Positions 36,630 through 40,008 of a DNA stretch of 64,000 nucleotides are shown piece by piece (within the stretch, counting starts at the first letter, position 1; the number at the start of each line of letters is the position of its first letter). This DNA is from Lentiprolixibacter aurantiacus (GTDB taxonomy: Bacteria > Bacteroidota > Bacteroidia > Flavobacteriales > Flavobacteriaceae), in assembly GCF_026241225.1 (NCBI RefSeq), contig NZ_JAPFQP010000002.1, positions 62,001-126,000 on the forward strand, given 5' to 3'. The translations under genes were made by a program, and so were the position numbers. The notes beneath the pieces are model-generated. The model searched no databases. It saw only the letters and a list, made by a program, of their open reading frames with translations, and was not told where the DNA came from.

Positions 36630-37382
36630 TTGGAACGACCCGTTAAGATACTTATCGTTGAGGACAATGTGATCATCGCAGATGATATGCAGTCCATGCT
36701 GGAAGAAATCGGTTATGAAATAGTAGATAATGTTATTGTATACGAGCAGGCAGAACAGGTATTGAAGACCAAGGAAGTAGACCTGGTACTAATAGACATC
36801 ATCCTTGCCTCAGACAAAACCGGAATCGATCTGGGAAAACACATACGTGATAACTACAACATCCCCTTTATTTTTGTGACTTCCAACTCGGATCGTGCCA
36901 CTGTTGAGAATGCCAAAACTGTTAAACCTAACGGTTACCTGGTAAAACCCTTTGAACAACAGGACCTGTACACCTCCATTGAAATTGCCCTATCCAATTT
37001 TGATTATTCAGGGAAATCAGAAACTGCGGCACCGCCTTCCAGCGATGACAAAATAGTTTCCAACTCAGTTTTAAGGGATTCCATATTTGTGAAGAAGCAA
37101 CACCTGTATTACCGTATACAATTTGGGGATATTCAATATATAAAGGCAGATAATGTATACCTGGAGGTACATACGATCGATAAGAAATTCCTGGTAAGAT
37201 CGCCTCTTAAGGATTATCTGGAAAAACTTCCCAAGAACAAATTCTACCGCGCTCATAAGTCGTACATCGTCAATGTAGATCATATTGACGCCATAAATTC
37301 AAAGGATATTATGATCAACAATAAACTGATCCCGATATCCAAGGATTTTAAAGAATTTATCATTTCAGCGATGAATTCCTGA
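36630..37382 (+). CDS. LytTR response regulator, 250 aa
   Basis: Two-component output regulator. Receiver with acidic pair Glu11/Asp12 (VEDN), phospho-acceptor Asp56 (VLIDIIL), Thr84 and Lys106 (YLVKPF) all intact; LytTR DNA-binding domain at ~145-245 (DIQYIKADNVYLEVHT, FYRAHKSYIVNVDHIDAINS). TTG start at 36630; no ATG exists before the receiver begins. The cognate kinase is very likely the HisKA_2 kinase 667 bp downstream. The gap between them holds two pairs of direct repeats with LytTR spacing. Confidence 0.92.
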   Translation: MERPVKILIVEDNVIIADDMQSMLEEIGYEIVDNVIVYEQAEQVLKTKEVDLVLIDIILASDKTGIDLGKHIRDNYNIPFIFVTSNSDRATVENAKTVKPNGYLVKPFEQQDLYTSIEIALSNFDYSGKSETAAPPSSDDKIVSNSVLRDSIFVKKQHLYYRIQFGDIQYIKADNVYLEVHTIDKKFLVRSPLKDYLEKLPKNKFYRAHKSYIVNVDHIDAINSKDIMINNKLIPISKDFKEFIISAMNS

Positions 37383-37402
37383 CCTTGTAAGAAATCGGAA
37401 AT

Positions 37403-37446
37403 AATGAGCCAGTATCTCCACTAGATACTGGCTCATTTCTTTTTTA
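37403..37446 (+). terminator. Rho-independent terminator of the LytTR regulator gene
   Basis: Perfect 15-bp stem AATGAGCCAGTATCT/AGATACTGGCTCATT with loop CCACT (37403-37437), followed by TCTTTTTT. Confidence 0.95.
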
Positions 37447-37452
37447 CCGTTG

Positions 37453-37482
37453 TTCACCACAGCTTTTGGATGGTTTACAACA
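37453..37482 (+). promoter_or_regulatory. LytTR-type paired direct repeat, pair 1
   Basis: TTCACCACA (37453-37461), 12 bp, TTTACAACA (37474-37482): two 9-bp half-sites 21 bp start to start, as in known LytTR operators. Exactly 28 bp further is the -7 element TATATTTG (37511-37518). Confidence 0.6.
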
Positions 37483-37510
37483 ATAATTTCTATTCCCGAA
37501 TTTCGGCTTC

Positions 37511-37518
37511 TATATTTG
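37511..37518 (+). promoter_or_regulatory. -7 promoter element TATATTTG of the first small-RNA unit
   Basis: Exact TANNTTTG match with no ORF downstream. No -33 TTG at the usual distance, as expected for an activator-dependent promoter. Confidence 0.55.
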
Positions 37519-37523
37519 GATTG

Positions 37524-37601
37524 TATTTGAAACAGTAAATTTTTTTCATTTTCATATAGTGTTCTCGTAAAAGAGGCCTTCCAGTTGGAAGGTCTTTTTT
37601 T
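37524..37601 (+). ncRNA. Candidate small RNA 1, about 75-80 nt
   Basis: Inferred transcript from the -7 element at 37511 to a terminator (stem AGGCCTTCC 37574-37582 with GGAAGGTCT 37587-37595, loop AGTT, then T-run). Body is AU-rich, contains AAAT then CATTTT and TAGTGTT at nearly the same offsets as in candidate 2. No ORF of note. The start site is estimated. Confidence 0.45.
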
Positions 37602-37666
37602 ATTGACTCTATCGATAAAAAGCATAAAAGTCCGGTGAAATGCTATTTGCATGGCATTTGGAGCAT

Positions 37667-37696
37667 TTCACAACAAGAATCGTCCAGTTCACAACA
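37667..37696 (+). promoter_or_regulatory. LytTR-type paired direct repeat, pair 2
   Basis: TTCACAACA (37667-37675), 12 bp, identical TTCACAACA (37688-37696); 28 bp further is TATATTTA (37725-37732). Same arrangement as pair 1. Confidence 0.6.
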
Positions 37697-37724
37697 TATT
37701 TCCTCCGGCAAAGCCCTGAAATTC

Positions 37725-37732
37725 TATATTTA
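37725..37732 (+). promoter_or_regulatory. -7-like element TATATTTA of the second small-RNA unit
   Basis: Matches TANNTTTG at seven of eight positions and, like the -7 element of unit 1, starts 28 bp after the second half-site. Confidence 0.45.
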
Positions 37733-37736
37733 AACC

Positions 37737-37812
37737 CGAATAAGATCCCCAAATCTTACCATTTTTTCCTTTAGTTTGTGAAAGGCTATGCACCTCTGTA
37801 TAGCCTTTTATA
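37737..37812 (+). ncRNA. Candidate small RNA 2 (or kinase leader), about 75 nt
   Basis: Inferred transcript from the -7-like element to the hairpin AAAGGCTAT (37781-37789)/ATAGCCTTT (37800-37808). Shares AAAT, CATTTT and TAGTTT at matching offsets with candidate 1. The T-run after the hairpin is weak, so part of the transcripts may read through into the kinase gene. Confidence 0.35.
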
Positions 37813-38049: not shown

Positions 38050-40008
38050 ATGGTAAAACCGCATAGAAAGCTTATTCTACTTTTCTGCTTTCTCGCTGTG
38101 TTCAGTGCAATAGCACAGGACATGGTGACTCCACCGGATAATTTACTCAGGGAGTTCAGGAATACTTCTGGCAGTGAAGCCCGTTTTGAGATCTTTTTTA
38201 ATGCGGAAGATCGCTATGCCGAAAATTCTGCTTATGACTGGCTGGATGCTCTGAATGTTTTTGCCAATAATGCCGCAGCGAATCAGGATTCTGTAGCCAT
38301 GCGTCATTATAAACTGATGCAGGCCCAGGCCTATTTTGATTTGGGCGACTACGAAAAAAGTGAAGCCTTTGCCCAGGACCTCTATAACGAGAATGAAAAT
38401 CTTGAGCGGGATCACATGGAGATCTTGCTGAACCTTTTGGATATAAATTACGAACGCCTGGGACTCTATGCAAAACAAGTTGAGGTTCGTCAACAAAAGC
38501 GCGACAGGGGTTTTACCGAGAATATTACTTTCTACGATATCTATTCCAATCTGGGTCTTCATCGCAAGGCGATGAAATACTACATAGATGAGGAAAAAGC
38601 AAAAATAGCCGAGGACGATTGGTATGGTCAGGCCGTCTACAATAACAATATTGGGAATTACTTGCGCCTGGACCGGTCTCCATCCACAGCAATCTCCTGG
38701 CTTTCCAAGGCCGAGGGCTTTGTGAATGTCTTTCTGAATGATAAGAGCCGTGCCAAAACCGATGAGCAAATTAATAAGGCGCATTTACTCCATGGCATTA
38801 TTGAAGCAAACCTCGGTAAATGCCATGTGCAATTAAACCAACATGAAGAGGCTATTGGCCATCTTGAGAAAGGGTTAAGCAGCATTAAAGAATACAAGGG
38901 TGAAAATTATTCTACAGAGGAGATAGAGTGTACCCTGGCCCTGGCAGAAAGTCATATCCAACTGGGTAATTATAGCCTTGCTACAGACTTGCTGTCTGCT
39001 CCTTTGGAATTAAGCAAAATTCAATATCAGAGGAAACGCAATCGGTTGTATGCTCTCTTTTATGAAAAGACCGGTGATTTTGAAAATGCCACCAGGTATC
39101 TGAAGAGAAATACTAGAATTGCGGACTCTTTGGACCTTACCTACAATGCACTCCAAAAACAGCAACTGGCAGTGGTGGCCGGACGAGATATTGCCAATGA
39201 AAAAAGAAAGCTCGATCAGCAAAAATTGCTGAACGAACAAATAAGAAGAAATATGGAAGCCCAGGAAGGGAAGACCAACCTGGTTTTTATTTCACTGATC
39301 TTTACACTCCTTGGTTTTGCTGGGCTGGTATATGCCTACCTGAAGAGTATCAAAAACCAGCGACTGATTGCAGAACAGAACCACATTATCGAGGCATCGC
39401 TCGTTGAAAAAGATTCCTTATTAAAAGAGATACACCACAGGGTGAAGAATAACCTGCAAATGGTATCCAGCCTGCTTAGCCTTCAAACTAAAAACACACG
39501 TAGTAAGGCTGCTATTGAGGCCCTGGAAGAGGGCAAGAGCAGGGTAAAGGCAATGGCCCTGATCCACCAGAAGCTTTATCAGAACGACGACTTGTCTGTA
39601 ATTGAAATGCAGGGCTATATCGAAAGTCTCGTAAACAGCGTACAATCCGTTTTCAAGAAGGGAGGCCATAACATCAATATTACCATAGACGCAGAAGGGG
39701 TGGAACTGGATATTGACCGGGCTATTCCTTTTGGTCTTATCCTCAACGAGCTGGTTTCTAATTCCTTTAAATACGCCTTTCCCGATGATAAGGAAAATGG
39801 TAAAATCTACATACACCTAAGGAAAAACGGGGACCAGGGATTCTTCGAATATATGGATAACGGGGTGGGGCTGCCGGAGGACACCGAAGAGCGAACGCAG
39901 TCCTCCATGGGGATACGCCTGATGAACCGACTGGTCAATCAGTTGCAATCTACGCTTAACATAGATAAAACTGCAGACGGAGTTCGTTTTTGGTTCAATT
40001 TTAAATAA
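38050..40008 (+). CDS. TPR sensor histidine kinase, HisKA_2 type, 652 aa
   Basis: Signal sequence (LILLFCFLAVFSAIAQ), periplasmic TPR-like helical repeats (~40-380), one transmembrane span (LVFISLIFTLLGFAGLVYAY, ~415-435), coiled coil, then HisKA_2 dimerisation box LLKEIHHRVKNNLQMVSSLLSLQ with phospho-His463 and a HATPase domain with N-box LILNELVSNSFKYAF and G-box DNGVGLP. HisKA_2 kinases commonly pair with LytTR-type regulators, which supports pairing with the regulator at 36630-37382. Confidence 0.92.
   Translation: MVKPHRKLILLFCFLAVFSAIAQDMVTPPDNLLREFRNTSGSEARFEIFFNAEDRYAENSAYDWLDALNVFANNAAANQDSVAMRHYKLMQAQAYFDLGDYEKSEAFAQDLYNENENLERDHMEILLNLLDINYERLGLYAKQVEVRQQKRDRGFTENITFYDIYSNLGLHRKAMKYYIDEEKAKIAEDDWYGQAVYNNNIGNYLRLDRSPSTAISWLSKAEGFVNVFLNDKSRAKTDEQINKAHLLHGIIEANLGKCHVQLNQHEEAIGHLEKGLSSIKEYKGENYSTEEIECTLALAESHIQLGNYSLATDLLSAPLELSKIQYQRKRNRLYALFYEKTGDFENATRYLKRNTRIADSLDLTYNALQKQQLAVVAGRDIANEKRKLDQQKLLNEQIRRNMEAQEGKTNLVFISLIFTLLGFAGLVYAYLKSIKNQRLIAEQNHIIEASLVEKDSLLKEIHHRVKNNLQMVSSLLSLQTKNTRSKAAIEALEEGKSRVKAMALIHQKLYQNDDLSVIEMQGYIESLVNSVQSVFKKGGHNINITIDAEGVELDIDRAIPFGLILNELVSNSFKYAFPDDKENGKIYIHLRKNGDQGFFEYMDNGVGLPEDTEERTQSSMGIRLMNRLVNQLQSTLNIDKTADGVRFWFNFK

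Follow-up and report, generated by a model that had tools for sequence, protein, structure and literature searches.

Candidate LytTR-controlled small RNAs in multicopy form in the Flavobacteriaceae, with a predicted lipoprotein mRNA target and a putative anti-sRNA paralogue

LytTR-type domains bind operators made of two direct repeats of about 9 bp with about 12 bp between them, and such domains are carried by the response regulators AgrA, VirR and RgaR. The control of several near-identical RNA copies by one response regulator is also known, namely for the Qrr RNAs under LuxO and the csRNAs under CiaR, which differ from the system described here in regulator family, RNAs and phyla. In the Firmicutes, RNAIII, VR-RNA, VirT and VirU have been named as small RNAs (sRNAs) activated by LytTR regulators, and in Clostridioides difficile RgaR acts on SpoZ via repeats whose G residues at -51 and -72 are critical (available part of PMC10602386). 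The locus presented here would follow the same logic as AgrA-RNAIII, VirR-VR-RNA/VirT/VirU and RgaR-SpoZ, that is a response regulator activating an sRNA via two direct repeats, and the spacing of 21 bp between the critical bases of RgaR-SpoZ is also that of the present operators (same part of PMC10602386). Unlike these Firmicutes systems, it consists of a multicopy family scattered over the genome, with a single near-invariant core and a -7 promoter of the Bacteroidota type, and it includes a paralogue complementary to another putative sRNA family.

Within the Bacteroidota, the closest described case is that of FopS and GibS in Bacteroides thetaiotaomicron (RF04319), which are multicopy paralogous sRNAs pairing near start codons; as for the RNAs reported here, an unpaired 5' part is followed by a terminator, and GibS and FopS are partly similar but diverged (available part of PMC11697453). 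The term LytTR is absent from that part of the text, and neither of the two RNAs of the present locus matches the FopS RF04319 covariance model. In Flavobacterium psychrophilum, Rfp18 is a conserved flavobacterial sRNA affecting the expression of secreted metalloproteases; by its description it is set apart by a strong structure with at least three stem-loops, and neither LytTR nor direct repeat occurs in the available part of the text (PMC9723704). Our impression is that few flavobacterial sRNAs have been studied so far, and a literature search that included sequence strings and covered articles proper, as distinct from supplements and bioRxiv, found no publication on the sRNA family, target or sponge pair considered below.

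The window, i.e. the whole 64,000-nt stretch of Lentiprolixibacter aurantiacus DNA under analysis, comes from a marine flavobacterium near Eudoraea and Zeaxanthinibacter, which hold the regulator's best relatives (95% and 91% identity, respectively). It encodes on its plus strand a response regulator of 250 aa with a TTG start (36630..37382), in which both the receiver (PF00072, E 8.1e-20) and the LytTR domain (PF04397, E 1.4e-18) score above the Pfam cut-off, and a TPR / HisKA_2 / HATPase_c histidine kinase (38050..40008; PF07568, E 4.8e-27; PF02518, E 7.9e-9) that is its presumed partner. The regulator gene is followed by a terminator-like hairpin and T-run read directly from the letters (37404..37446), and the 667-bp gap up to the kinase contains two promoter-terminator units, each composed of two 9-bp direct repeats, a -7 box, about 75 transcribed bases as predicted and a terminator. 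The list of open reading frames holds none of 60 aa or more in this gap, except for a mechanical 95-aa ORF on the minus strand (37365-37652) that overlaps unit 1.

In unit 1, the predicted operator (37453..37482) is formed by TTCACCACA (37453) and TTTACAACA (37474), and is followed by the -7 box TATATTTG (37511..37518); in unit 2, both half-sites read TTCACAACA (37667 and 37688; operator 37667..37696) and the -7 box is TATATTTA (37725..37732). In both units the half-sites stand 21 bp apart from start to start, i.e. with N12 spacing, and the -7 box, which we take to be of the Bacteroidota type, begins 37 bp after the second half-site, leaving 28 bp between them. A sequence-only reading of the window had placed these operators and -7 elements exactly, base for base, and its geometry holds for both units, as do the three motifs it had found common to them, AAAT, CATTTT and TAGT(G/T)TT, which lie respectively 26/26, 36/35 and 46/47 bp after the start of the -7 box. 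Regarding the hairpins, its position for unit 2 (37781-37808) was right, and that of unit 1 proved slightly longer than it had given, at 37569-37600 with the T-run extending to 37601.

The repeats are far from being a local accident. Across the 3.13-Mb genome, four places carry the exact half-site pair, and two of these are at the locus; a reversed control has none. The operator with its -7 box, with up to three mismatches allowed, is found at 11 sites vs. none in the reversed control. Among 80 relatives retained with a regulator 85-95% identical, the gap 3' of the regulator gene contains at least one operator with -7 box in 78, the exceptions being L044 and L068, and the distance from the second repeat to the -7 box in these gaps is 37 bp in 125 of 134 matches, 38 bp in eight and 36 bp in one. 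The repeats are thus conserved alongside the regulator, and their loss from related genomes that keep the flanking genes, which the sequence-only reading had named as grounds for abandoning its interpretation, is not what is observed.

The predicted unit-1 RNA is about 79 nt long (37523..37601, plus strand, 5' end placed from the -7 box) and scores E 2.4e-13 with the covariance model R1, in which this very sequence is included. Its terminator hairpin and T-run (37569..37601) show double-sided compensatory changes at 10 of 14 alignment pairs, and the core CATTTTCATATAGTGTTCTC is recognisable with up to three mismatches at the regulator locus of 40 of the 80 relatives. In the alignment of 40 unit-1 sequences (the window and 39 relatives, the degenerate L056 being left out), all but two of the 24 positions 37543-37566 are invariant, bearing in mind that the sequences had been preselected by allowing at most three mismatches to a 20-nt segment of the core. 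The consensus structure presents a largely unpaired core and then the terminator; against this, the single-sequence fold of the window's own unit 1 engages part of the core in weak pairs. With its covarying terminator and conserved core, the short promoter-terminator unit is thus conserved as an RNA, as expected for a trans-acting sRNA. A known Rfam family can be dismissed as its identity, as neither unit matches any family at gathering score in an Rfam 15 scan of the window, and the csRNA model reaches E 2 only, below gathering. The sole Rfam match in the window is the Bacteroidales small SRP RNA RF04183 (9084-9190, plus strand, 110.6 bits).

Unit 1 is not confined to the regulator locus, a feature that, like the conserved complementary partners described below, lay beyond the reach of the sequence-only reading. 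In this genome the R1 model has two strong matches, one being unit 1 itself and the other a distal copy on the minus strand (G000:C2:253395-253465), lying outside the window, 154 kb away, and preceded by an operator and -7 box of its own. In a family sample of 199 genomes, about one per genus, 37 genomes have a match at E <= 1e-3 and 32 at E <= 1e-8, referred to as strong, for a total of 102 matches, one to five per genome, of which a few weaker ones correspond to unit 2. A looser first set of 80 core matches included one spurious match (L103, minus strand) and two unit-2-like ones (L114, L168); the 77 copies examined, which are part of the 102 model matches, have at most two core mismatches and pool regulator-adjacent and distal copies. 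The half-site pair at 21 bp precedes 74 of these 77 copies, 70 of them with the -7 box at 37 bp as well, the corresponding numbers for 228 control stretches taken within these loci being two and none. Chance repeats are ruled out by these control stretches (0/228) together with the reversed controls (0). As for spread beyond the family, an order sample of 246 genomes speaks against it, the six strong genomes all belonging to the same family; ten other genomes have weak matches (E 9.9e-5 to 8.4e-4), probably due to chance.

The distribution of the RNA follows that of the regulator. A close orthologue of the latter (E <= 1e-90) is present in 35 of the 199 genomes, and all 32 genomes with strong unit-1 copies fall within these 35 (Fisher p 6.6e-34, not corrected for phylogeny). 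The three regulator genomes lacking strong copies (G030, G077 and G096) belong to a group of four in which the regulator has diverged furthest (69-77% identity), and the fourth of these, G057 (76%), has the weakest of the strong matches. Within this sample of 199 genomes, strong unit-1 copies occur solely alongside a close regulator orthologue. It could be argued that the repeats are bound by a different LytTR or other regulator, the response regulator being merely a neighbour, as the genomes hold several candidate relatives of it; this is improbable given the operators found 3' of the regulator in nearly all relatives, the restriction of strong RNA copies to genomes with a close orthologue and the concentration of the three missing cases among the most diverged regulators. 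Control by the adjacent response regulator is the reading retained below.

The position of the units upstream of the kinase raises a further question, namely whether they could be kinase leaders or attenuators, starting at the operators and being either terminated or read through into the kinase. Such leaders would accommodate both the short unit-2 T-run and the stretch between unit 2 and the kinase, for which the list shows no ORF reaching 60 aa. On the other side, unit-1 copies with operator and terminator are found away from the regulator, e.g. the distal copy at C2:253395, and in up to 27 of 77 relatives a further operator with -7 box stands close before the next ORF (e.g. L008-L011, L023 and L025), some of these operators being possibly that of unit 2 itself. 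A role as kinase leader or attenuator only is ruled out by the copies remote from the regulator, and a leader function altogether appears highly improbable; likewise, the suggestion in the sequence-only reading of read-through into the kinase received no positive support. The kinase-proximal operator of the relatives rather favours direct control of the kinase there, and no such third operator is recognisable in the present genome.

Besides the units, other operator-like sites of the genome, some with two or three mismatches, precede genes that, by our own reading of the sequences, resemble those for collagen-like, leucine-rich-repeat, T9SS-sorted and other secreted proteins and for an ECF sigma factor. 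At C1:766178-766242 (minus strand, L088), an operator and -7 box lead into a stretch of about 130 bases that appears noncoding and then a strong terminator, which makes this unit a candidate for a further small RNA. At G000:C1:1447233-1447297 (minus strand, L085), an operator and -7 box precede a long gene read by us as collagen-like, the short leader of which contains CCCAAATCCTATAAAT, resembling the unit-2 core.

Regarding what unit 1 may act upon, a stretch of 23 nt of its core (37544..37566) is perfectly complementary to the start-codon region of a lipoprotein mRNA (G000:C1:440445-440467). A search of the genome with the 21-nt reverse complement of the core, allowing up to three mismatches, returns five matches, i.e. 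the two sRNA genes and one other with no mismatch, and two with three mismatches; besides the sRNA genes, the sole match with fewer than three mismatches is therefore the perfect one, which lies across the lipoprotein start codon. By our own estimate, about 1e-6 chance matches of a 21-mer are expected over the 6.3 Mb of both strands. The lipoprotein-like ORF has a CAP domain (PF00188, E 1.1e-15) and adjoins a Colicin V/CvpA-type gene (PF02674), and the perfect duplex with unit 1 spans 23 bp.

Homologues of this lipoprotein exist in all 35 genomes searched (45 matches), some of them only 30-45% identical. For pairing energies, the best homologue of each of 30 genomes was taken, seven more regions being added separately, with each ORF's first ATG serving as control start. 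The predicted duplex reaches -18 kcal/mol in 24 of the 30 homologues, vs. 3 of 647 starts of other ORFs and 2 of 86 starts of the MK type, and unit 1 thus shows the conserved predicted pairing with an mRNA that is expected of a trans-acting sRNA. Counting against it, G160, G102, G086, G164 and G135 clearly fall below the threshold, with weak or no sites (-6.4 to -15.7 kcal/mol), and G050 just misses it (-17.7 kcal/mol). Among genomes with strong unit-1 copies, neither lipoprotein homologue of G057 has a pairing site, and no lipoprotein start is readable in G150. In the three regulator genomes devoid of strong unit 1, none of the four homologues has a site either (-5.2 to -10.2 kcal/mol), as expected if the lipoprotein is the target, these homologues being also more distant. 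In the 10-nt UTR part of the site, 22 of 46 substitutions keep pairing (p 0.03 vs. one third), or 19 of 42 when distinct sites are counted (p 0.07), five rows without a site having been dropped, a pattern that lends weak support to targeting by unit 1.

The conserved stretch is U-rich and longer than the usual seed, which would suit a protein-binding element, be it contacted by an RNA chaperone or acting as a decoy that captures an RNA-binding protein; its match to the lipoprotein start would then be incidental. We consider this unlikely when set against a perfect match located at a start codon, where so few chance matches are expected, and against strong predicted pairing in most homologues but hardly any control start. 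The lipoprotein mRNA is hence taken as the one precise predicted target of unit 1, which the complementarity and its conservation support well. Other conserved targets were sought and discarded; in 12 genomes, the 40 sites containing AACACTATATGA comprise 29 sRNA copies, six lipoprotein sites and five without a common gene start. As an exact 12-nt match was required, there may be weaker targets besides.

The predicted unit-2 RNA is about 75 nt long (37737..37811, plus strand, putative 5' end) and matches its own covariance model R2, which includes it, with E 2.2e-10; it ends in a terminator hairpin with a short T-run of four T (37781..37809), read directly and conserved in relatives. The alignment used for this unit (A2) holds 29 of 41 sequences, picked for a clear terminator. 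With up to three mismatches, the unit-2 core is found at the regulator locus of 40 of the 80 relatives; since the unit-1 core is found there in the same number, half of the relatives have no recognisable unit 1 and half no recognisable unit 2 at this place. Cultured relatives possessing the two units include Eudoraea chungangensis (L043) and Muriicola jejuensis (L031). In Cellulophaga, the loci L030 and L033 each have one hybrid unit bearing both cores, and CATTTTCATATA is common to units 1 and 2 in several loci; the hybrids back the view that the two units are paralogues. The central proposal of the sequence-only reading, two paralogous sRNAs driven by LytTR-type operators, is accordingly borne out as a prediction by the conserved repeats, the recurring terminators, the hybrids and the co-occurrence with the regulator. 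Of note, 11 of the 28 regulator genomes examined show no recognisable unit-2 core, in a set from which G164 and G135 were left aside and in which the -7 filter may miss some units.

Unit 2 has its own, quite different complement. The segment CCCCAAATCTTACCAT (37747..37762, plus strand) is perfectly complementary to tandem RNA units at G000:C1:478644-479127, outside the window, over 16 nt in the first and second units and 15 nt in the third. The array sites begin at C1:478644, 478911 and 479116 (region C1:478600-479200, L332:4600-5200) between ORFs that we read from their sequences as purF-like and sod-like, and each array unit is made of a -7-like box, CCATAGCATAAGTAGGTTAAGTT(C/T)ATGGTAAGATTTGGG and a terminator-like hairpin. 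A search of 12 genomes for the complement of the unit-2 core, RTAAGATTTGGG, shows at least three tandem sites at intervals of 150-610 bp in every one of them, and the full array motif as well. Complementarity to another sRNA, the hallmark of an sRNA sponge, is thus present (16/16/15 nt), transcription of the array being presumed. The array RNAs score 17.5-17.7 bits with the FopS model RF04319, for which gathering is 56, and match no Rfam family at gathering score.

A 26-nt segment of unit 2 is predicted to form a duplex of -27.2 kcal/mol with the array. Over 20 unit-2 variants, hand-picked for a recognisable core and including the identical G000 and G126, the predicted energies with the array of the present genome lie between -17.5 and -30.3 kcal/mol, compared with averages of -9.5 to -11.9 for shuffled sequences; for 16 of the 20 variants none of 200 shuffles pairs as well, the exceptions being G106, G026, G032 and G176. 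Counting against a tight partnership, the central base of unit 2 varies and the array is unchanged. In a search that left the pairing part largely open, the array motif is present in 157 of the 199 family genomes (reversed control of the rows listed, 0), far beyond the 35 with a close regulator orthologue, and many of the listed copies are a variant one A shorter that pairs more weakly (-22.1 kcal/mol). The lack of a recognisable unit-2 core in part of the regulator genomes and the presence of the array motif in many genomes devoid of a close regulator orthologue indicate that the two are not obligately linked.

The match between unit 2 and the array is most simply explained by a sponge, but the array must also have a life of its own. 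Alternatively, both RNAs might act on mRNAs only, in which case unit 2 would be complementary to the array through shared ancestry or a shared target sequence, a possibility to be taken seriously even if we hold it for somewhat doubtful. The far wider distribution of the array motif than of the regulator, the regulator genomes in which the unit-2 core is unrecognisable and the occurrence of CATTTTCATATA in both units would all agree with it. It has to contend with a perfect complementarity of 15-16 nt to each of the three array units here, the tandem sites in each of the 12 genomes and duplex energies that, for most of the hand-picked variants, are better than those of every shuffle.

The array promoters themselves may provide a lead. 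In the consensus of 79 copies, loose direct repeats TTYAnCnRA stand 20 bp apart, the second one 37 bp before the -7 box, and their sequence is unlike that of the unit-1 and unit-2 operators; in 12 other array copies, the last of the array wherever the whole of it is visible, a different near-invariant promoter is shared. As this geometry resembles the LytTR type, a second regulator of similar type may be involved, which is put forward as a lead only.

Taken together, a mechanism can be proposed in which the regulator probably activates the RNAs, unit 1 silencing one mRNA and unit 2 sponging another RNA family, a scheme we hold with good though not full confidence. The neighbouring kinase would switch the LytTR regulator, presumably by phosphorylation, and the regulator would bind the two 9-bp direct repeats, the second copy of which lies 28 bp before the -7 box, and thereby activate transcription from dispersed short RNA genes, namely the two units of the locus and one or more distal unit-1 copies. 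The unit-1 RNAs would then pair by 23 nt across the lipoprotein start codon and block translation. Through CCCCAAATCTTACC, located in the 5' portion of its core, unit 2 would pair with the widespread array small-RNA family and titrate it, the direction of this effect being that expected of a sponge. More tentatively, and with a likelihood that we put just short of even, the whole may constitute a two-armed switch, in which dispersed sRNAs induced by one LytTR system silence a lipoprotein and their diverged twin serves as a dedicated anti-sRNA against a second sRNA family, the motif of which occurs in most of the sampled genera of the Flavobacteriaceae (156/198).

What is known already is the logic of the Firmicutes systems, and what appears new is the proposed LytTR-to-sRNA logic in multicopy form, in another phylum and with a candidate anti-sRNA arm. 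The present analysis provides a conserved sRNA family, the probable activator of this family, the code of its promoters, its copy number and one precise, well-supported predicted target, as well as a candidate sRNA-sRNA partner, the motif of which is found in most of the sampled genomes, about one per genus (157/199). Each of these links can be tested in cultured environmental strains. If the proposed scheme is true, the LytTR-to-sRNA logic of the Firmicutes also exists, in multicopy form, in the Bacteroidota.
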